A stretch of DNA of 64,000 bases from Myxococcota bacterium (GTDB lineage: Bacteria; Myxococcota_A; UBA9160; UBA4427), in the NCBI GenBank assembly GCA_028278345.1, contig JANQEL010000159.1, positions 1 to 64,000 of the forward strand. Reading direction: 5' to 3'. Under the pieces are notes generated by a model that did no database searches, had not been told where the DNA came from, and saw nothing but the letters and a program-made list of their open reading frames with translations. This document shows positions 16,110-56,908 of this stretch, one piece after another (the first letter of the stretch is position 1; each line of letters starts with the position of its first letter). The position numbers were made by a program, and so were the translations under genes.

Positions 16110-17174
16110 CTGAACGAAATCCCCCGACGCGCGAAGGACATCGACGCAGCGTGGCTCGAAGCCGTGCTGCGGCCGCACTTCGACGACGTGCGCGTGGCCG
16201 CGGTCGAACTCGTCGATCGCACGGAGATGACGAACAGCCACGCACGTCTTCGCGCGCACTACGACGAGCCGGCGGGGGCGCCCGAGACCTTCTTCTGCAA
16301 GCTGCTTCCCCCGGATGGCGTGCGACGCGAACAGATCGCCCAGACCGGCATGGGCCCGCGTGAAGCGCGCTTCTACGACACCCTCGCCCCGCACCTCTCG
16401 ATGCGGATCCCGACGCCCTACCACGCTGCCCACGACGCCGACGACTTCGCCTTCGTGCTCGTGCTCGAAGACCTCGTCGAAACCGGATGCACCATCTCGG
16501 ATGGCACCGTCGGACTCACCCCCGACGCCGCCGCCAGGGCCCTCGAAGACCTCGCGGATCTCCATACCCGGTGCATGCCCGGCGGCCCCCTCGACCAGGC
16601 GACGCGCTGGGTCGCGGGCCCCCTCGACAGCGACTACGGCGCGTTGATGCTGCAGACTGGCCTCGATCATCACCGCAACAGACTCACCGATGTCTACGCA
16701 GAGCACGCCGCCCTCTATATCGAAAAGCGCCGTGCTCTCCACGCCCTCTGGCACGAAGGCCCACACACGGTGATCCACGGCGACACGCACATCGGCAACC
16801 TCTTCGACGACGGCGAGCGAACGGGCTTCCTCGACTGGGGGATCATCAACCGCTCCACGCCCCTGCGCGACGTGAGCTATCTGCTCGTGATGGCGCTCTC
16901 GATCGAAGATCGCCGCAGCCACGAACGCGCTCTTCTGAAGCACTACCTCGAAGCACAGCGGGCACTCGGTGGTTTCGATCTCGACTTCGACGAGGCCTTT
17001 CGCAGCCACCGTATCCAGGCCGCCTACGCGGTCCCCGCGAGTTGCCAGATCGTGACCTTCCCCGAGAAGACGACGCCGGCGCGCGAGACCTTCGCGCGTG
17101 CATTCCTCGCGCGCGCCGAGGCGGTGCTCGAAGATCTCGACGTCCGCGAAGCGCTGCGCGACGCGGGCCTCTAG
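16110..17174 (+). CDS. APH-fold phosphotransferase, apparently with a CTG start
   Basis: 354 residues if read from CTG at 16110. The kinase-like motifs are HGDTHIGN (residues 223-230, catalytic Asp and metal-binding Asn) and DWG (242-244), typical of aminoglycoside phosphotransferase or choline-kinase folds, including the ACAD10-like group linked to acyl-CoA metabolism. The conserved N-terminal segment IPRRAKDIDAAWL, usual in this family, lies upstream of the first ATG/GTG/TTG in frame (GTG 16164). Upstream of it the frame offers only CTG at 16110 or 16098 before the TGA at 16095. CTG 16110 has GGAG seven bases ahead. A CoA-transferase follows, favouring a metabolic rather than a drug-resistance role. 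Confidence 0.8.
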   Translation: MNEIPRRAKDIDAAWLEAVLRPHFDDVRVAAVELVDRTEMTNSHARLRAHYDEPAGAPETFFCKLLPPDGVRREQIAQTGMGPREARFYDTLAPHLSMRIPTPYHAAHDADDFAFVLVLEDLVETGCTISDGTVGLTPDAAARALEDLADLHTRCMPGGPLDQATRWVAGPLDSDYGALMLQTGLDHHRNRLTDVYAEHAALYIEKRRALHALWHEGPHTVIHGDTHIGNLFDDGERTGFLDWGIINRSTPLRDVSYLLVMALSIEDRRSHERALLKHYLEAQRALGGFDLDFDEAFRSHRIQAAYAVPASCQIVTFPEKTTPARETFARAFLARAEAVLEDLDVREALRDAGL

Positions 17175-17241
17175 CCCGCCGCGCTTCGAGGGACGCACGA
17201 GCGTGATACGCTCGCGGGCCAACCACTCGGAGTCATCGCTC

Positions 17242-18423
17242 ATGGCAGGCGCGCTTTCCGGCTATCGCATCATCGACGTCACCCAGGTGATCTCGGGCCC
17301 CCTCGCAACACGCGTCCTGGCGGACCAGGGAGCCGACGTCATCAAGATCGAACCGCCGACCGGCGACATCCTGCGTCACATGGGTGGTATCGAGGGTCTC
17401 GCCCCCACCTTCACCACGATCAACCGCAGCAAGCGTTCGGTGGTGCTCGACCTCAAGAAGGCCGAAGCCATCGAAGCGTTGAAGCGCCTGGTGAAGGACG
17501 CCGACGTCTTCATCCAGAACAGCCGCCCGGGGGCCGCCGATGCGATGGGCATCGGCGAGAAGGTGATCCGGGAGATCCGCCCGGACATCGTCTACGTCTC
17601 GATCTCGGGGTTCGGTGAAGAAGGCCCCTACTCGCACAAGCGCGTCTACGATCCGCTGATCCAGGGCATGTCGACGCTGACCGAGATCCAGGGCGGGCCG
17701 GGCGGTCGGCCCAGCCTGATGCGCGTGATCATTCCCGACAAGGTGACGGCGCTGACCGCTTCCCAGGCGATCACCGCGGCCCTGCTCGCACGCGAACGCA
17801 CGGGAGCGGGGCAGCACGTCCGCCTCTCGATGCTCGACGCCGTGCTCGCCTTCACCTGGCCGGAGGGCATGGCCTACCACACGTTCGTCGCGGACCACCT
17901 GCCCAAGCCCAAGCCGGTGGCGCGACGCGACCTCGTCTACGAAACCAGCGATGGCTACGTGATCGTATCGACGGTGGCCCACCGCGAGTGGGAGGGTTTC
18001 TGTCGCGCCGCCGAAAAGCACGAGTGGCTCGAAGATCCGCGCTTCCAGGACACGGCGGGTCTGGTGAAGAACGCGAAGGAACGCCTCGAGATGATGGCGG
18101 AGGCCCTGCTCGAAAAGCCCACCGAGCACTGGCTCGAGGCCCTCGATCGCGAAGACGTGCCCTGTGCCCCCGTGCTCTTCCGCGACAACGTGCACCTGCA
18201 CCCGCAGGTCGTCGCGAACGGCATCATCGTCGAGGACGAGCACCCGGTGGTGGGCAAGGTCCGCCAGACGCGCCCCGCGGAACGCATGGACGGCACCCCT
18301 TCCGAGATCTCCCGCCCCGCCCCGACCCTCGGCCAGGACACCGACGAAGTGCTCGCGGAGTTCGGCTTCGCCGAGGGTGAGATCGCGGCGCTACGTGAGA
18401 TCGGCGCCCTGGGAAAGGCGTGA
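17242..18423 (+). CDS. Family III CoA-transferase (CaiB/BaiF)
   Basis: A 393-residue enzyme that moves CoA between carboxylic acids or acts as an alpha-methylacyl-CoA racemase; the class is clear but the reaction is not. The N-terminal block IIDVTQVISGPLATRVLADQ, GADVIKIEPP, NRSKRSVVLDLK and YVSISGFGEEGPYSHKRVYD are typical. The catalytic Asp is in SMLDAVLAF. ATG at 17242 starts the domain precisely. Its stop overlaps the following glutathione transferase by 4 bases (GTGA), so these two form an operon; the APH-fold gene 67 bases upstream may belong to it. Confidence 0.92.
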   Translation: MAGALSGYRIIDVTQVISGPLATRVLADQGADVIKIEPPTGDILRHMGGIEGLAPTFTTINRSKRSVVLDLKKAEAIEALKRLVKDADVFIQNSRPGAADAMGIGEKVIREIRPDIVYVSISGFGEEGPYSHKRVYDPLIQGMSTLTEIQGGPGGRPSLMRVIIPDKVTALTASQAITAALLARERTGAGQHVRLSMLDAVLAFTWPEGMAYHTFVADHLPKPKPVARRDLVYETSDGYVIVSTVAHREWEGFCRAAEKHEWLEDPRFQDTAGLVKNAKERLEMMAEALLEKPTEHWLEALDREDVPCAPVLFRDNVHLHPQVVANGIIVEDEHPVVGKVRQTRPAERMDGTPSEISRPAPTLGQDTDEVLAEFGFAEGEIAALREIGALGKA

Positions 18424-19136
18424 GCCGGGCGATGGCCGAAGCGGTTTCCGACGCCAGCGAAACGCCCTGCATCTGGGGGGTCGGCACCTCCCGCACGATC
18501 CGCGCCCACTGGACGCTTTGCGAACTCGGTGTCGACTACACCTGGCACGACATCATCCCGCGCACCGAGACGATGGAAGACCCCGCGTTTCGCGCGGTGA
18601 GCACGCGGGGGAAGGTTCCGATCCTCGTGCATCGGGGACGGGTGATCGGGGAGTCCGGCGCGATCGCGCTGCACCTCGCCGATCACTACCGCGACCACAT
18701 GGCGCTCGCCCCCGAGCCTGCGGGTCTCGACCGGGCGGTCTTCATGGATCGCTACTGCTTCATGCTGATGGAACTCGACGCCCCCCTCTACATCATCAGG
18801 CGACACGAAGGCCTGGCCGACGTCTACGGGGAATCGAAGGTCGCGGCCGCTTCCGCGCGCGAGTACTACCAGCGTCAAGCGGGTGTCGCGAGCGAGTGGC
18901 TCGAGAAGACGGGCTTCGTCTTCGGCGAGAGCTTCAGCGTGGCCGACATCCTGCTCGCCAGTTGCAGCGCCTGGGCCGAGCTGGTCGGCGTGCAGCCTCG
19001 CGAAGCGATCGCGCGGCACCTCGAACGCGCGAAGACGCGCGAAGCCTTTGCCCTCGCGGCGCAGCGCAACTTCCCGCCCGCCGCCCTCGCGATGCTCGCC
19101 GCCCAGGGCAAGCCGCCGAGCGACGCGAACGCGTAG
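18420..19136 (+). CDS. Glutathione S-transferase family protein
   Basis: 238 residues with a thioredoxin-like N-terminal domain (CIWGVGTSRTIRAHWTLCEL; RGKVPILVHRGRVIGESGAI carries the cis-Pro and the glutamate/serine glutathione-binding motif) and an all-helical C-terminal domain ending near residue 220 (FSVADILLASCSAWAEL). It probably conjugates or isomerises with glutathione in the cytoplasm. GTG at 18420 overlaps the CoA-transferase stop; ATG at 18432 is an alternative. It ends one base before the stop of the convergent selenoprotein candidate, also a glutathione/thiol-fold enzyme, which may be functionally related. Confidence 0.88.
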   Translation: MSRAMAEAVSDASETPCIWGVGTSRTIRAHWTLCELGVDYTWHDIIPRTETMEDPAFRAVSTRGKVPILVHRGRVIGESGAIALHLADHYRDHMALAPEPAGLDRAVFMDRYCFMLMELDAPLYIIRRHEGLADVYGESKVAAASAREYYQRQAGVASEWLEKTGFVFGESFSVADILLASCSAWAELVGVQPREAIARHLERAKTREAFALAAQRNFPPAALAMLAAQGKPPSDANA

Positions 19137-19137
19137 C

Positions 19138-19764
19138 TCAGGTTTCGCCCGCGAGCTCCGGGTGCGTCAGGTAGTGGCGCACCAACTCGAAGCGATCGTT
19201 TCCCCAGAACATCTCGTCTCCGACGAAGATCGTGGGCACCCCGAAGACGCCGCGCGCGATTGCCTCGTCGGTATCGCGTTCGAGGCGATCCTCGAGTTCC
19301 GAAGAGTCGGCCCGTTCGAGGGCCGCGTCGGCATCGAGCCCCGCCTCGACGAGCAGGCGATGCAGCAGCGCGCGATCCGAGGGATCCGCCGGTTCGGCCC
19401 AGCGCGCCCGGTACATCGGATCGTGGAACTCGCGAAAGCGCCCCTCGTCCTTCGCCACCAGCGCCGCGCGCAGGGCGAGGGACGTATCCGTCTTCATGAA
19501 CTGCCGCGCGTCCGGCGAGATGGGGGCCCCACAGAGCTGCGACCAGTGGCGGACGCTGTTCTGGTAATCGTGGCTCTTTCGCTTCGACATCGTCGGCCGC
19601 GGACCGGCGGGCTCTTCACCGGGCGCCGGTTGCACGAGCTTGCGCAGCTTGACCGGCCGGAAGTCGAACTCGACGTCGAGATCGGCGAAGTAGGCATCTA
19701 ATCGGCAACTGCCGAAGTAGGCCCAGGGTCAGGCGTAGTCGTAGTAGAAGGGAAGCGTACGCAT
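19138..19764 (-). CDS. Putative selenoprotein: DsbA-family / 2-hydroxychromene-2-carboxylate isomerase-like, Sec12
   Basis: Read with UGA at codon 12 (19729-19731) as selenocysteine, this is a 208-residue thioredoxin-fold protein. The N-terminus MRTLPFYYDYA-Sec-PWAYFGS matches the DsbA/HCCA-isomerase pattern in which Cys or Ser precedes Pro at the active site. The C-terminal hallmark GVFGVPTIFVGDEMFWGNDR is intact, and no other disruption exists in the frame. ATG at 19762-19764 has CCGGGAGAA upstream. A hairpin directly after the UGA fits a bacterial SECIS. The same frame also ends in TGA (19138-19140). Usual family roles are glutathione-dependent isomerisation or thiol redox chemistry. If UGA were a plain stop, only a 164-residue product from GTG 19635, lacking the active site, could be made. 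A recent nonsense mutation is the alternative. Confidence 0.82.
19691..19725 (-). promoter_or_regulatory. Candidate bacterial SECIS hairpin (selenocysteine insertion element)
   Basis: Numbering the UGA as bases 1-3 of the mRNA, bases 18-21 (CGGC) pair with 26-29 (GCCG) around the tetraloop AGUU at 22-25, so G23 and U24 fall at the loop positions important in the E. coli fdhF element. U17 can be bulged with U16 pairing A30, as in fdhF. Below a C15/U31 mismatch, bases 12-14 pair with 32-34; after a 2-base bulge, bases 7-11 pair with 37-41 (one G-U). The hairpin runs through codons unusual here (TTA, AGT, CGA), consistent with selection on RNA structure. SelB recognition is inferred. Confidence 0.8.
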
Positions 19765-19811
19765 GGCGGTTCTCCCGGGTTTCGCTCTGGACCGATGGGT
19801 TCACCGCGAAC

Positions 19812-19823
19812 CGAATCGATTCG
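19812..19823. promoter_or_regulatory. 12-bp perfect palindrome upstream of the selenoprotein candidate
   Basis: CGAATCGATTCG is a perfect palindrome between the candidate -10 (19834-19839, minus strand) and the start codon at 19764. Its place just downstream of the promoter suits a repressor site, but a 12-base palindrome can arise by chance. Confidence 0.25.
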
Positions 19824-19833
19824 CACCCCCGCG

Positions 19834-19839
19834 AGTCTA
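19834..19839 (-). promoter_or_regulatory. Candidate -10 element for the selenoprotein gene
   Basis: On the minus strand GTTAGACT lies about 70 bases upstream of the ATG at 19764. It repeats the GTTAGACT found before the APH-fold gene. A TTGGCG lies upstream at 19-base spacing, long for a -35. Confidence 0.4.
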
Positions 19840-19975
19840 ACGAGCGGCGCGATCACTCCGCCAACCCTCGAGTCGGGCGGCGAACGCGCCGAAACGCTGG
19901 ACGCGGCGCCCGTCGCATGGAAGGATTCCCGCCGCGCGACCGTCGGCGTGTCGCGCAGCAAGGAGTCGAGTCACA

Positions 19976-20551
19976 GTGAACGAAAGCCAGACCCAACGGA
20001 ATCATCCCGAAGCGAGTGGCCCGGCTGGTAGAACGGCCTCGGCCTTCGCCCTCTTCGCGCTCCTCGTCGTCCTCATCGGCGTCGCCGGTGTGGCCCCTGC
20101 ATCCGAGCCCCTGACCCCGAGCCTGGAACAGCGACGTACCTCGGCAGAGTTCCAGTACTCGTACAAGCAGCGCCCGACCGTCGACAGCCTCGTGATCGCC
20201 TGGACGAGCAACAAGATCGTTGCGAAGGGGAACAAGGGTGGCCCGTTGAATCTCGAAAAGCTTCCCCAGGGCGTGCGCTTCCGCCTCGAACGCCAACTGC
20301 GATTCTTCGCGCGCGGCATCATGCCGGTCGAACGCCTGCCCACCCGAAGCATCATCCAGGAGTTGGTGGCCGATCCCGAACTCGCCAAGACCGCCGACTT
20401 CGACTTCGATCCCCAGTCGGGCGAGATCGAGCTGCGCATGAAGGAAGAGCTCTGGAGGGCGACGCTCCGCTTCAACGCCTACCAGCTGGGACACGCGATC
20501 CGTACGACCGGTCGCTACGGGCTGGGGCGTGCCGAAGCGCTCGAGCCCTAG
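19976..20551 (+). CDS. Exported protein of unknown function
   Basis: 191 residues. A hydrophilic N-terminus of about 20 residues is followed by one hydrophobic segment (about 21-42, ending VAPASE), so it is a signal peptide or an anchor. The mature part is polar and mixed alpha/beta (QYSYKQRPTVDSLVIAW, QLRFFARGIMPVERLPTR), with no cysteines and no family I recognise. GTG at 19976 has AAGGAG upstream. Its stop codon shares the palindromic CTAG at 20548-20551 with the stop of the convergent glutathione transferase. Codon use resembles its neighbours, so it is probably a real gene. Confidence 0.65.
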   Translation: MNESQTQRNHPEASGPAGRTASAFALFALLVVLIGVAGVAPASEPLTPSLEQRRTSAEFQYSYKQRPTVDSLVIAWTSNKIVAKGNKGGPLNLEKLPQGVRFRLERQLRFFARGIMPVERLPTRSIIQELVADPELAKTADFDFDPQSGEIELRMKEELWRATLRFNAYQLGHAIRTTGRYGLGRAEALEP

Positions 20552-21255
20552 CCCTCTTCTTCCAGATGTCCCGTGCCCTGTCGGGTGAGCTTCGACAGGC
20601 GCTGGATGTGGCCGGAGAGGCTCGGCCGTGCGTCGAGCATGTCGGCGGTGCGGGGCATCGGCCCGTCGCGCATCACGAGCATCATCCCGAACACGGCGAG
20701 GTCGGCGACGCTCATCTCGTCGGCGTAGAAGAACTCGCGGGTGCCGAGGAAACCGACGAGATCGTCCATGCGGTTCTCGAGTTCGGAGAGGATCGAACGC
20801 ACACCGGGGATGTCCTCGACCGGAACCTCGTGTTCGATGCCCAGCCGCTGGTCGACGTGCTGGTGGATGCGTGAGAGCAGCCCGGGGGTCGCGTCGCGTT
20901 GCTGCCGCTCGTGCTCTTCGATCACGGCGAGCCAGCGATTCCAGTAGAAGGCAAAGCTCGAGTCGGACCATTCGGCGAGGCTCTGCTGCCGCCGCTTCAC
21001 GTTGGGATCACTCGAGTACAGCGACGGCTCGGGATAGAGTTCGTCGAGCCAGCCGATGATCTCGTTCGAGCCGGAGACACGCTTCCCATCCACTTCGAGA
21101 ACCGGAAGGATCTGCTTGTCCGGACTCAGCCGCTTGATCTCTTCCGAATCGCTGACCTCGCAGCGCAGGTACGCGACCTGTTTCAGCGCGAGCGCACAGG
21201 CGACCTTCTCCGTGAACGGATTCATCAGCTGCGAGTAGAGCTTGACGCTGGTCAT
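20548..21255 (-). CDS. Glutathione S-transferase family protein
   Basis: 235 residues. The N-terminal thioredoxin fold starts MTSVKLYSQLMNPFTEKVACAL, with ILPVLEVDGKRVSGSNEIIGWL carrying the cis-Pro and the acidic/Ser glutathione-binding site (here SN-E). The C-terminal helical domain includes FFYADEMSVADLAVFGM. There is no Cys at the classical N-terminal active site, so Ser or Tyr chemistry is more likely. ATG at 21253-21255. A TAGACT element (21354-21359) and an inverted repeat (21399-21427) lie upstream. It is convergent with the unknown exported gene. Confidence 0.88.
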   Translation of the reverse strand: MTSVKLYSQLMNPFTEKVACALALKQVAYLRCEVSDSEEIKRLSPDKQILPVLEVDGKRVSGSNEIIGWLDELYPEPSLYSSDPNVKRRQQSLAEWSDSSFAFYWNRWLAVIEEHERQQRDATPGLLSRIHQHVDQRLGIEHEVPVEDIPGVRSILSELENRMDDLVGFLGTREFFYADEMSVADLAVFGMMLVMRDGPMPRTADMLDARPSLSGHIQRLSKLTRQGTGHLEEEG

Positions 21256-21353
21256 GGGACCCTGGGCATAGGGGGCGAACTGGCGCGGTTCGCCGATCCC
21301 CCTGAGGCCGATCCACCTGGCATCGACCGGGTGGATTGGAAGGCGGGGGACGC

Positions 21354-21359
21354 AGTCTA
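21354..21359 (-). promoter_or_regulatory. Candidate -10 element for glutathione transferase gene
   Basis: TAGACT on the minus strand, 98 bases upstream of the ATG at 21255, the same hexamer found before four other genes in this window. Confidence 0.35.
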
Positions 21360-21398
21360 CCGCTCGCGCCGCCCGAGCGCGAATGCCAACCCATGAGA

Positions 21399-21427
21399 GA
21401 TTCGTTTCTCATTTACGGAAACGAATC
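21399..21427. promoter_or_regulatory. 10-bp inverted repeat between CoA-transferase and glutathione transferase
   Basis: GATTCGTTTC at 21399-21408 is repeated inverted as GAAACGAATC at 21418-21427, perfect over 10 bases with a 9-base spacer. It lies just past the stop of the leftward CoA-transferase operon and about 40 bases upstream of the TAGACT box before the next leftward gene. It could be a terminator hairpin (no T tract follows) or an operator. Confidence 0.4.
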
Positions 21428-21439
21428 CCACAATGCGAC

Positions 21440-22642
21440 TCAGCGTATTGCCCCGCTCGCCTTCAACTGCGCGACACGGTCAGCGTCGAGGCCGAGTTCG
21501 TCGAGTACTTCGTCCGTGTGCTCACCGAGGCGGGGTGCGTGGCGCGCGATGTCGGCGGGGGTGCGGTCGAAGCGCATCGGGGGAGCGAGGTACTTCACGG
21601 CACCGAAGCGGGGGTCTTCGAGATCGACCACGCAACCGCGCTGCTTCACGTGGGGATCGGCGAGGAAGTCATCGATGTCGTTCACCGGCGCGAAGGGCGC
21701 CCCCTCGCGCCGCGCCGCTTCGAGGAACTCCTCGGTGGGGATCTTGCGGATCTCCTCGGCGACGATCGGGACGAGTTCGAGCCAGTTGTTGAAGCGATCC
21801 GCCATCGGAGCGAAGCGCGGGTCTTCGGCCAGGTCGGGGCGATCGAGCACCCGACACAGCCCCTGGTATTGCGCGTCCTGGATGATCAGGCCGACCACGA
21901 AGCCATCCGCCGTCTCCCAGCTGCGAAAGAAGTCGCGGCCCACGCTCACGTCGTTGCGCAGCGGCGGGAAGCTGCGCTCCATCATCGGCTCGGTGAGGGA
22001 GAAGGCGCTGAAGGCGTCGATCATCGCCACCTCGACGCGCTGACCGCGCCGTTCGGGATCGCGCTCACGCGCCAGCAAAGCCGCGAGCGCCGCGCCGAGG
22101 GCCGTCATCGAAGTCGACTTGTCGGCCACCGCCCCCTGCACGAGTTGGGGCGGGCCATCGCCCCCCTGCTCGGGCATGCGCCCCACGATCCCCTGCAACA
22201 CCTGATCGTAGGCGGGCCGGTCGGCGTAGGGCCCCTCGCTCCCGAAGCCGTTGATCTGGAGATAGACGAGCGAAGGGTTGCGCTCGGCCAGGGCCTCGTA
22301 GCCGAGCCCGAGCCGGTTCATCACCTCGGGCCGGAAGTTCTCCGCGACGATGTCGAACTCGCCCACGATGTCGAGAATGAGGTCGCGCCCCTCCTCGCTC
22401 TTGAGGTCGACCACGATGCTGCGCTTGTTGCGATTGAACTGGGCGAGGAAGCCCGAGAAACCCGGTTCTCGAAAGGGAGCGCCGCTGTAGCGACACGAAT
22501 CGCCGAAGGGAGATTCGACCTTCACCACGTCGGCCCCGAGGTCGCCCAGGGCCTGGGTGGCCATCGGCCCGGAGATCACGGTGGTGAAGTCGAGCACCTT
22601 GATGCCCGCGCAGGGCCCGGTTCGCGCCGTCTCGTCACCCAT
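21440..22642 (-). CDS. Family III CoA-transferase (CaiB/BaiF)
   Basis: 400 residues. Typical blocks are KVLDFTTVISGPMATQALGDLG, GADVVKVESPFGD, NRNKRSIVVDLK, VAENFRPEVMNRLGLGY and INGFGSEGPYADRPAYDQ. The catalytic Asp is in AMIDAFSAFS. The start ATG at 22642 overlaps the TetR stop by 8 bases, so this is the last gene of a dehydrogenase-TetR-CoA-transferase operon. Likely role: activating or racemising a branched or terpenoid acid produced by the divergent P450/aldehyde dehydrogenase operon; this is inferred from context. Confidence 0.92.
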   Translation of the reverse strand: MGDETARTGPCAGIKVLDFTTVISGPMATQALGDLGADVVKVESPFGDSCRYSGAPFREPGFSGFLAQFNRNKRSIVVDLKSEEGRDLILDIVGEFDIVAENFRPEVMNRLGLGYEALAERNPSLVYLQINGFGSEGPYADRPAYDQVLQGIVGRMPEQGGDGPPQLVQGAVADKSTSMTALGAALAALLARERDPERRGQRVEVAMIDAFSAFSLTEPMMERSFPPLRNDVSVGRDFFRSWETADGFVVGLIIQDAQYQGLCRVLDRPDLAEDPRFAPMADRFNNWLELVPIVAEEIRKIPTEEFLEAARREGAPFAPVNDIDDFLADPHVKQRGCVVDLEDPRFGAVKYLAPPMRFDRTPADIARHAPRLGEHTDEVLDELGLDADRVAQLKASGAIR

Positions 22643-23249
22643 CGGTCGCTCCCTGTCGTTCGAGTTCCGTCGTCAATGTCTCGGCCAGCATGCGCAGGGG
22701 CCGCGACCAGCCGCGATCGGAACCGGCGCGGTCGAGATTGCGTGTCGACGCGAGCCCCGAGAGCACGGCGACAGTGTAGAGCTGGAGATCGATGGTCTGC
22801 GGACCCTGCGGATCGCTCTGGGGAAACCAGCGCGCCCAGATTCGACCCCAATGCCCCAGCATCTGGCGCTGCCACGGCACCTCGATCTCGTCGGGAAGGT
22901 TCTGGAGGATCTCGAAGGTCGTGCGGTACTCGGCGCTGCTGAAGTGTCCCCAGGCGCGCTCGACGAAGAGGCCCACCCGCTTCTCGAGTTCGGGTTCGTC
23001 GGGAACATCGCCGAGGCGTTCGGCGAACCGATCGAAGGAGGCCTCGAGCACCGCGGCCAGGATGCCGTTCTTGTCGCCGAAGTGATGTTGCACCGCACCC
23101 CAGGTGACGCCCGCGCGCTTCGCGATCTCGTTGGCGGTGGTGCGGCCGAAGCCCACTTCGTTGATCGCCTCGACGACCGCGGTCATCACCCGGTCGCGGG
23201 TCTCGGCGGTGCGTTCGGCGTGGGTGCGTCGCGCCCGGGCCGGGGTCAT
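22635..23249 (-). CDS. TetR-family transcriptional regulator of the CYP51-type locus
   Basis: 204 residues. The helix-turn-helix is GRTTANEIAKRAGVTWGAVQHHF (about residues 30-52), with a C-terminal ligand domain. Start ATG at 23247-23249 overlaps the upstream dehydrogenase stop (ATGA), and its own stop overlaps the CoA-transferase start, so all three are translationally coupled. The strong palindrome at 24206-24231 between this operon and the divergent P450 operon is the obvious candidate operator. A ligand such as an acyl-CoA or steroid/terpenoid intermediate is a guess from neighbours. Confidence 0.9.
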   Translation of the reverse strand: MTPARARRTHAERTAETRDRVMTAVVEAINEVGFGRTTANEIAKRAGVTWGAVQHHFGDKNGILAAVLEASFDRFAERLGDVPDEPELEKRVGLFVERAWGHFSSAEYRTTFEILQNLPDEIEVPWQRQMLGHWGRIWARWFPQSDPQGPQTIDLQLYTVAVLSGLASTRNLDRAGSDRGWSRPLRMLAETLTTELERQGATDG

Positions 23250-24118
23250 GCCCCTTCCTCTTCTTCGATCACACCGTAGAAGCGCGCCATCGACTGCGAG
23301 ACCAGGCCGGCGACGGGCAATCTCAACCCGTTCGTTCTCGCGAGCTGCAGCACCCAGGTGAGATCCTTCTCCGCGATCGCCGTGTGATTGCGCATCAGGG
23401 CCTGGAAGTCTTCGTTGGAACGCACCTCGGGCGGCAGCTTCAGGCCCGTCATGTACTGCTGCATCATCGGCGTGATCTGCCCGTTCGACTTTCCCGCCGC
23501 TTCGAGGACTTCGACCGGGAGGCCCGCGGCCTTCGCGAGGTGCAGCGATTCGTACGCCGCCGCCCACTGGATGTAGGTGATCAGGTTGATGCAGAGCTTG
23601 AGCTTCGCGCCGTTGCCGAGTTCGCCCGCGTGGATGATGGGGACTTCGGAGGTCGCCTCGAAGTATGGGCGCGCCTTGTCGACGGCGGCTTCGTCGCCAC
23701 CGATCAGGTAGGTGATCTGCTTCACCTTGGCGCGTGCCTCCCCGCCCGTGACGCAGGCATCGACCACCGCGATGCCCTGCTCCTTCGCCGCACTCTCCAC
23801 CTGGCTCGCGGTATCGGGAAGCACGGTGCTGTGGATCAGGATCACGCCACCCGGCGACATCCCCGCCAACAGGCCGTCTTCGCCGAGCACCACCGCGAGC
23901 ACGTGCTTGTCCTCGGGAACACAGATCCCGACGACATCCGCGTTGGCCCCCACTTCGCGGGGCGACTTCGCGGCCTTCGCACCGTCGGCCGCAAGCTCGG
24001 CCATCGGTGCCTCGACGACATCGTAGACGGTGGTCTCGAATCCGGCGGGGGCGAGGTGGGCCGCGATCGGCTTGCCCTGGTTGCCGAGGCCGATGAAGCC
24101 GACGCGAAGTGAAGGCAT
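23246..24118 (-). CDS. 3-hydroxyisobutyrate dehydrogenase-family NAD(P) oxidoreductase
   Basis: 290 residues of the beta-hydroxyacid dehydrogenase family. The cofactor motif is GFIGLGNQG at 7-15; DACVTGGEARAK corresponds to the substrate-binding SGG motif, and the catalytic lysine is in GNGAKLKLCINL. ATG at 24116-24118; a longer frame runs into the operator region and is rejected. First gene of a coupled operon with a TetR regulator and a CoA-transferase, divergent from the P450 operon. I recall a related dehydrogenase (Rv0770) near the mycobacterial cyp51 locus, which supports a joint pathway. Confidence 0.88.
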   Translation of the reverse strand: MPSLRVGFIGLGNQGKPIAAHLAPAGFETTVYDVVEAPMAELAADGAKAAKSPREVGANADVVGICVPEDKHVLAVVLGEDGLLAGMSPGGVILIHSTVLPDTASQVESAAKEQGIAVVDACVTGGEARAKVKQITYLIGGDEAAVDKARPYFEATSEVPIIHAGELGNGAKLKLCINLITYIQWAAAYESLHLAKAAGLPVEVLEAAGKSNGQITPMMQQYMTGLKLPPEVRSNEDFQALMRNHTAIAEKDLTWVLQLARTNGLRLPVAGLVSQSMARFYGVIEEEEGA

Positions 24119-24205
24119 GAGCGGGGGTCTCCTGGCTGAAGCGACCGGAGCCCGTACGAGCACCCGCGCCACGGTCCCTGTGAATCGATGCCGCACATTA
24201 TCTCA

Positions 24206-24231
24206 ATTTACCTTGCACATGCAAGGTAAAT
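24206..24231. promoter_or_regulatory. 26-bp operator-like palindrome in divergent intergenic region
   Basis: ATTTACCTTGCA at 24206-24217 and its exact inverse TGCAAGGTAAAT at 24220-24231 flank a 2-base centre. The palindrome lies 19 bases before the P450 start (24250) and 88 bases from the leftward dehydrogenase start (24118). It is AT-richer than its surroundings, and perfect over 12-base arms, which is very unlikely by chance. A TetR dimer encoded in the leftward operon is the expected binder, controlling both operons. Confidence 0.8.
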
Positions 24232-24249
24232 GTCGTAGGGTGCGCCGCC

Positions 24250-25428
24250 ATGGTCGAGTTCTCCCCCTATGCGTACGAGTTCCACGAAGACCCCTTCCCC
24301 ATCTACGCACGCCTGCGCGAAGAGGCACCCGTCTACCACAATCCAGAATTCGCTTTCTGGGCGCTATCGCATCACGACGACGTGCTCGCCGCATTCAAGG
24401 ACGTGGCGACCTTCTCGAACATCCACGGCGTCTCGATCGATCCAACGGCCCGCGGGCCCCATGCGCGAACGGGAACCTCCTTTCTCGCGATGGATCCGCC
24501 CGAGCACACCCGCTTCCGCAGTCACGTGGCGCGCAGCTTCACGCCCAGGCGGGTCGCGGCCCTCGAACCGCGCATTCGCGAAATCGCAGCGATGCGCCTC
24601 GACGAGTTGAAAGGGCGTGAATCATTCGACTTCATTGCCGACTTCGCGGGCAAGCTCCCGATGGACGTGATCAGTGAGATGATGGGCGTGCCGGAACCCG
24701 ACCGCGCCGAACTCCGCAGCTGGGCCGACCTGATGGTCCACCGCGAAGAAGGCATGTTCGACGTTCCGCCGGAAGGCGCGGCCGCATTCGCGAAGATCCG
24801 CGCCTACTTCGAGGAACACCTCGCGGAGTTGCGCCGCGAGCCCGGTGACGACCTGCTGTCTTCCCTTCTCGCACTCGAAAGCGAGGACGGCGAGGCGGTG
24901 CTCGATCAGGACGCCATGCTCTCCTTCTGCAACCTGATGATCACCGCGGGCAACGAGACCACCACCAAGCTCCTGGGCAACATGCTCTACTGGCTGTGGC
25001 GCAACCCGGAGACGAAAGCGCGGGTGGCGGGAGATCCCAGCCTGATCCCGGCGTGGGTCGAGGAAACGCTTCGCTACGACAATTCGACCCAGGCGCTGAT
25101 GCGGCTCACGCTCCGGGACGTGACGATCCGCGGTGTGACGATCCCCGCGAATCAGTACGTCCTGTTGCTGGTGGGGAGTGCGAATCGCGATCCGGCCGCC
25201 TTCCCCGACCCCGATGTCTACGACATCGATCGCGACACGAGCGACCTGCTCTCCTTCGGCCGCGGCAACCACTTCTGCATGGGGGCGGCCCTGGCCCGCC
25301 TCGAAGGCCGCGTCGCCTTCGAGGAGTGGTGGAAGCGCTTCTCCGACTACGAGATCCAACCGGACGGCATCGCCCGCGTCCATTCCGTCAACGTACGCGG
25401 CTTCGCCGCCCTCCCCGTCAAGGTCTGA
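24250..25428 (+). CDS. Cytochrome P450, first gene of CYP51-type operon
   Basis: A 392-residue soluble P450. I-helix AGNETT at 233-238, ExxR at E272/R275, haem loop FGRGNHFCMG with Cys343. It resembles actinobacterial P450s such as the CYP123 group by neighbourhood, but I cannot assign the family by eye. It begins 19 bases past the palindromic operator and is followed after 32 bases by an aldehyde dehydrogenase, then by a CYP51-ferredoxin fusion whose ferredoxin may serve both P450s. Probable role: sequential hydroxylation of a methyl group whose aldehyde is then oxidised by the dehydrogenase; substrate unknown. Confidence 0.92.
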   Translation: MVEFSPYAYEFHEDPFPIYARLREEAPVYHNPEFAFWALSHHDDVLAAFKDVATFSNIHGVSIDPTARGPHARTGTSFLAMDPPEHTRFRSHVARSFTPRRVAALEPRIREIAAMRLDELKGRESFDFIADFAGKLPMDVISEMMGVPEPDRAELRSWADLMVHREEGMFDVPPEGAAAFAKIRAYFEEHLAELRREPGDDLLSSLLALESEDGEAVLDQDAMLSFCNLMITAGNETTTKLLGNMLYWLWRNPETKARVAGDPSLIPAWVEETLRYDNSTQALMRLTLRDVTIRGVTIPANQYVLLLVGSANRDPAAFPDPDVYDIDRDTSDLLSFGRGNHFCMGAALARLEGRVAFEEWWKRFSDYEIQPDGIARVHSVNVRGFAALPVKV

Positions 25429-56832: not shown

Positions 56833-56908
56833 TGGAGCGCGAGACCGGGATCGAACCGGCGACCCTCAGCTTGGGAAGCTGATGCTCTACCAACTGAGCT
56901 ACTCGCGC
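56833..56908 (-). tRNA. tRNA-Gly (anticodon CCC)
   Basis: A complete cloverleaf of 73 bases plus encoded CCA. Acceptor stem GCGCGAG (56908-56902) pairs CTCGCGC (56843-56837). D-arm GCTC/GAGC, anticodon stem TCAGC/GCTGA with loop TTCCCAA (anticodon CCC at 56875-56873), variable loop GGGTC, and T-arm with TTCGATC. Discriminator is T and CCA is at 56835-56833. It reads GGG codons. Confidence 0.96.

Follow-up and report, generated by a model that had tools for sequence, protein, structure and literature searches.

A probable bacterial SECIS hairpin behind an in-frame UGA at codon 12 of a DsbA/kappa-GST-like gene in a Myxococcota bacterium

SECIS-directed selenoproteins are a kind of system that is already known. 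In the SECIS of E. coli fdhF, the positions singled out are U17, G23 and U24, and the minimal element covers positions 15–31 (PMC8659212). The bSECIS model, as set out in the catalogue of 2026, has an apical loop of 3–9 nt on an upper stem of 4–16 bp, a G at one or both of the first two loop positions, with G/U after it in most cases, a spacing of 16–37 nt from the UGA to the apical loop, and a free energy of −7.5 kcal/mol or lower (PMC13188914). Table 1 of the same catalogue contains a 'DsbA-like protein form 2 (crotonase/enoyl-CoA hydratase family protein)' with PF01323, the motif DxxUP and the accession number MDP6049977.1 (PMC13188914), and the family description in the Global Ocean Sampling (GOS) selenoproteome gives a 'DsbA 3' with UxxV and pfam01323 (PMC2398784). 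The kappa GSTs, which share the fold concerned here, are described as requiring the active-site Ser16 for activity (PMC10295636).

The window analysed here is a stretch of 64,000 nucleotides from a Myxococcota bacterium, and all positions refer to its full length. The features around the putative selenoprotein gene are the following.

18420..19136, (+) strand: cytosolic-type GST gene, convergent with the putative selenoprotein gene (context).
19138..19764, (−) strand: putative selenoprotein gene of the DsbA family, with ATG at 19764, the presumed Sec UGA as codon 12 and a TGA stop at 19140-19138.
19729..19731, (−) strand: in-frame UGA, candidate Sec residue 12, replaced by Cys in 17 of 26 close homologues and by Ser in distant ones.
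19691..19731, (−) strand: putative SECIS hairpin, numbered from the UGA and including the lower stem to base 41, as judged from register and folding.
19703..19714, (−) strand: apical stem-loop CGGC-AGUU-GCCG, positions 18–29, invariant in 9/9 UGA genes.
19976-20551, (+) strand: ORF of 191 residues with no Pfam match, kept beside the gene in L103.
20548..21255, (−) strand: second GST gene, on the strand of the putative selenoprotein gene, which also adjoins the gene in L103 and L104 (same genus).

When its TGA is read as Sec, the gene encodes 208 residues (MRTLPFYYDYAUPWAYFGSCR...), which match PF01323 (DSBA) of Pfam over residues 4–199 (1.6e-39) and carry the active-site motif D-x-x-U-P as D9-Y-A-U12-P13; the second Cys of the CxxC is replaced by Ala (UxxA). 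No NCBIfam model scored above its cut-off, the sole weak match being NF041057 (22.8 bits vs the cut-off of 190), and the only PHROGs match was a weak one, to a family of unknown function. The protein shares PF01323 and D-x-x-U-P with the DsbA-like form 2 (MDP6049977.1), to which it is likened by the catalogue description only, and on motif and Pfam family it is probably a member of that catalogued family. A difference is the crotonase/enoyl-CoA hydratase name, since neither a crotonase domain nor a fusion was found in the DsbA-like protein or in the ten flanking ORFs scanned. DsbA 3 of the GOS selenoproteome, compared by description only, is of the same Pfam family and has a single Sec without a CxxC partner, but with UxxV instead of the UxxA in the window; it is another candidate family for this protein.

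On the minus strand, with the UGA (19731–19729) as positions 1–3, the bases 18–21 (CGGC) pair with 26–29 (GCCG), the loop at 22–25 is AGUU with G23 and U24, and a U is located at 17, exactly as in the preliminary description of this DNA. The lower stem to base 41 proposed there is seen in two predicted helices, 12–14/32–34 and 7–11/37–41. The fold of the 41 nt in the window has an energy of −14.4 kcal/mol and a z of −2.61, and 3 of 200 shuffles fold equally well. Shared with the E. coli fdhF SECIS are the distance from the UGA, the 4-bp stem 18–21/26–29, the tetraloop with G23/U24 and the U at 17. The loop of the E. coli element is GGUC, whereas that in the window is AGUU, the stem bases are other ones, and U17 is predicted to pair with A30, so that a match claimed to be base for base holds for the geometry and not for the bases. 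Likewise, U17 had been called bulge-able: the U is present in all nine genes with UGA at codon 12 (see below), but in the window it is predicted to be paired with A30 (P(unpaired) 0.026), which extends the upper stem to 5 bp, and L115 and L126 are the only two of the nine in which it is predicted to be bulged (about 0.76). Thus, an fdhF-like U17 bulge is not established for the window hairpin by these predictions; moreover, the conservation of U17 is weak proof because this base is the second one of a Phe/Leu codon. The comparison with the bSECIS model, which had been proposed as a check, showed agreement with its structural and energy rules in 9/9 UGA genes: the loop has 4 nt and the stem 4 bp (5 bp with U17-A30), the loop is AGUU in all nine, the spacing from the UGA to the apical loop is 18 nt in all nine, and the energies range from −9.7 to −19.4 kcal/mol across them, that of the window being −15.0 kcal/mol. 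A search of Rfam gave no match to a SECIS family. Among the 1274 TGA trinucleotides on both strands of the window, 13 are followed by a 4-bp stem at the fdhF register and one, namely the UGA of the putative selenoprotein gene, by the stem together with G23 and U24; about 0.8 (13/16) would be expected by chance, so the geometry of the hairpin alone is not significant. A chance hairpin is rejected on the link to the UGA across genomes and not on geometry.

Judged from the comparison of sequences, it is this link to an in-frame UGA that gives the hairpin its significance. In a scan of genome contigs, 80 of 114 relatives were kept; among these, the position aligned to codon 12 has TGA five times, a Cys codon seven times and a Ser codon 64 times, and it was not read in the other four. 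Then 90 genomes of the class to which the window belongs were searched; 68 of them have a match with an E of 1e-20 or below, and a close homologue, defined by 49% identity or more, occurs in 26, the window's own genome included. Codon 12 in these 26 is TGA in nine and Cys in 17, and the five TGA loci of the contig scan are all among these nine genes. A wider draw of 377 genomes of the phylum at E 1e-42 returned the same 26 close homologues and none further. The nine UGA genomes span several families, and the frame is open on both sides of the UGA in each. The record L004, titled Spirochaeta sp. MED672, has the same gene as G060 of the window's family, and its assembly is probably mislabelled. 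The stem at the fdhF register with G23/U24 is present in 9/9 UGA genes, 0/17 Cys genes and 0/68 Ser genes, counts that include related genes, and the stem without these loop bases occurs in 2/17 Cys genes. In addition, TGA-N14-CGGCAGTTGCCG has nine matches across the 90 genomes, all of them at the DsbA-like gene, vs two matches for the reversed control. The bare 12-mer CGGCAGTTGCCG is found two times in the window's genome vs three for its reversed control; it is a common word and has no weight outside the UGA register. Among the viral contigs scanned, the pattern of UGA plus hairpin was not found, and a plasmid search gave relatives only below 60% identity.

In a protein tree of 35 sequences (the 26 close homologues and nine of the Ser type), the nine UGA genes are split over three positions: six lie close to the window's gene, L115 groups with L126, and L120 makes up the third. 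A single UGA clade is rejected (AU p 0.0156), and the supported branches require two or more changes. The independent contrasts between UGA and hairpin amount to 2–3, which are too few for a sign test, and none of them opposes the link. Fisher tests of the association take no account of kinship among the genes, and their p values are only a loose guide.

The genome of the window, a draft of 7.26 Mb in 292 contigs with 5.88% contamination, contains selA (513 bits), selB (294 bits), selD (316 bits) with an in-frame TGA, reading MGEVRLTQLVPAGGUARK, and a tRNA-SeC with the anticodon TCA. A second tRNA-Sec candidate, on C159, was rejected as it is a tRNA-Ser. The only tRNA in the window is a tRNA-Gly (CCC) at 56833-56908 on the (−) strand. 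The selD of this genome (L098 1489–1620, G000 C175) is a selenoprotein gene itself (GGUARK), and a strong hairpin follows its UGA. In a survey of 27 genomes (the 26 with close homologues and G044), selA is above the cut-off in 25 and selB in 22, and both are present in 9/9 UGA genomes. At the thresholds used, G009 and G011, both of the Cys type, are without selA and selB, G012 and G036 are without selB only, and G004 has a selB below the cut-off. G071 contains selA twice and a full selB twice, by duplication or contamination.

The codons behind the UGA bear on a reading in which Sec is inserted and the hairpin is conserved merely as the protein is (G-S-C-R), and not as an RNA signal. The G-S-C-R peptide is indeed kept in most Cys genes too, and the invariant apical stem shows no covariation, both of which speak for this reading. 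Against it, Gly18-Ser19-Cys20 are encoded by GGC-AGT-TGC in 9/9 UGA genes and at all three tree placements, whereas the Cys genes, with the peptide mostly kept, use AGC, GGA and GGG: at the Gly18 site the 17 Cys genes have GGC in 8, GGA in 5, GGG in 3 and GCC in 1, and at the Ser19 site AGC in 13, AAC in 2, TCG in 1 and AGT in 1. The UGA set has 59 columns with an invariant residue, ten of which have a single codon; one of the ten is the TGA and four (15, 18, 19 and 20) lie just after it. The Cys set has a single codon in 0/28 such columns. We hold it to be very unlikely that protein conservation explains the hairpin. With 41 window genes picked by GC3 as the reference for codon usage, the earlier remark that codons within the hairpin are rare is true of TTA, codon 22 of the window's gene, which makes up 2 of 1724 Leu codons; AGT accounts for 69 of 1062 Ser codons (6.5%), and CGA, with 131 of 1296 Arg codons (10.1%), is not rare. 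As for compensatory changes in homologues, which had also been proposed for checking, one double change was found: in the bulged-U17 structure the pair 16–30 is U-A in six sequences, C-G in two and unpaired in one, and the covariation score of this structure is reached by 32 of 500 shuffles. With U17 paired, the nine UGA sequences gave no covariation, and the four apical pairs never vary in 9/9. Covariation is thus almost nil because the apical stem is invariant; the support for a SECIS comes from the co-occurrence of UGA and hairpin and from the frozen synonymous codons.

The UGA might instead be a true stop, in a gene that has decayed, that carries a sequencing error, or whose translation begins again at the GTG at 19635, yielding a protein of 165 residues without the active site. 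A 165-residue ORF with a GTG start does exist downstream, and the genome is a draft (292 contigs, 5.88% contamination); however, the same UGA recurs in nine genomes of several families with the frame open on both sides, the hairpin is confined to genes with the UGA, and the short ORF would miss residue 12 as well as the first strand and the active-site helix of a fold that is complete in the long reading. These facts make a true stop highly improbable. An open frame through the UGA would also be expected if it were read as some other amino acid, for example Trp, by an altered code or general readthrough, the hairpin being unrelated. Yet TGA ends the window's gene and six of the eight complete UGA genes, so TGA works as a stop as well; moreover, the aligned residue in relatives is Cys or Ser, never Trp, and the Sec machinery is present. 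The chance that another amino acid is inserted is close to negligible.

Taken together, the hairpin is very probably a bacterial SECIS for Sec at the UGA codon 12 of this DsbA/kappa-GST-like gene. The proposal of a SECIS behind a Sec UGA, already made in the preliminary description, is supported by the exchange of UGA and Cys, the co-occurrence of the hairpin, the presence of selA and selB in 9/9 UGA genomes and the frozen codons. When the ribosome reaches the UGA at codon 12, SelB carrying Sec-tRNA(Sec) would bind the apical stem-loop and deliver selenocysteine, and the chain would not be terminated there. Translated to its end, the gene would give a DsbA-family protein with the fold of HCCA isomerase and kappa GST, in which Sec12, immediately ahead of the first active-site helix, would occupy the nucleophile position where relatives carry Cys or Ser.

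The AlphaFold2 model of the protein, built with 49 aligned sequences, has a pLDDT of 94.7 and a pTM of 0.90, and residue 12 lies directly before the helix 13–25. Its best solved relative is the HCCA isomerase 2imd (phmmer 3.3e-17, Foldseek 1.9e-11; Z 22.5 and rmsd 2.3 over 192 residues), with which the kappa GSTs 1yzx and 1r4w are tied in Z (about 22, rmsd 2.3–2.4, identity about 21–24%). The fold is shared with HCCA isomerase and kappa GST over nearly the whole chain, but at an identity of about 21–24%, and the catalytic Ser at the start of their first helix is absent here, being Sec in 9/26 and Cys in 17/26 close homologues. Because Sec or Cys replaces this Ser, we do not class the DsbA-like protein as an HCCA isomerase or a kappa GST, only as one that may work alike. 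The segment FWGNDR and Pro177 are conserved and shared with the Ser-type relatives, and FWGNDR presumably has a glutathione role. Cys78 is present in 9/9 Sec proteins, 4/17 Cys proteins and none of nine sampled Ser proteins, Tyr being there in most (L103–L127 and the window); when the tree is allowed for, this association with Sec amounts to 1–2 independent contrasts. Comparison of the sequences points to Cys78 as a possible partner of Sec12. We propose an enzyme with one selenol because the second Cys of the CxxC is replaced by Ala, and the protein is probably a glutathione-dependent redox enzyme or transferase of this kind. The region 17098–25428 of the window contains two GSTs, two type III CoA-transferases, a P450, a 3-hydroxyisobutyrate-dehydrogenase-like gene and a TetR regulator, and its content suggests a neighbourhood devoted to catabolism or detoxification; a glutathione-linked chemistry of the DsbA-like protein is what we infer. 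Our literature search found no paper describing a Sec-containing protein of the HCCA-isomerase or kappa type. A selenium-dependent relative of kappa-class GST and HCCA isomerase, in which the selenol would replace the glutathione-activating Ser, Cys78 would be a partner tied to Sec, and Sec and Cys would have been switched at least two times within one class, is a tentative idea that we consider possible and rather doubtful.

For annotation, the active site of this DsbA-like gene would be missed by any gene prediction in which UGA counts as a stop. Beyond the known kind of system, the added interest lies in the Sec/Cys/Ser series and in Cys78, and the surprise is moderate. Among the relatives, a single catalytic position is naturally occupied by Sec, Cys or Ser, and the recoding signal is found only with Sec; this series may help to study what Sec contributes to a one-thiol enzyme of the glutathione type, and also the gain or loss of a SECIS.
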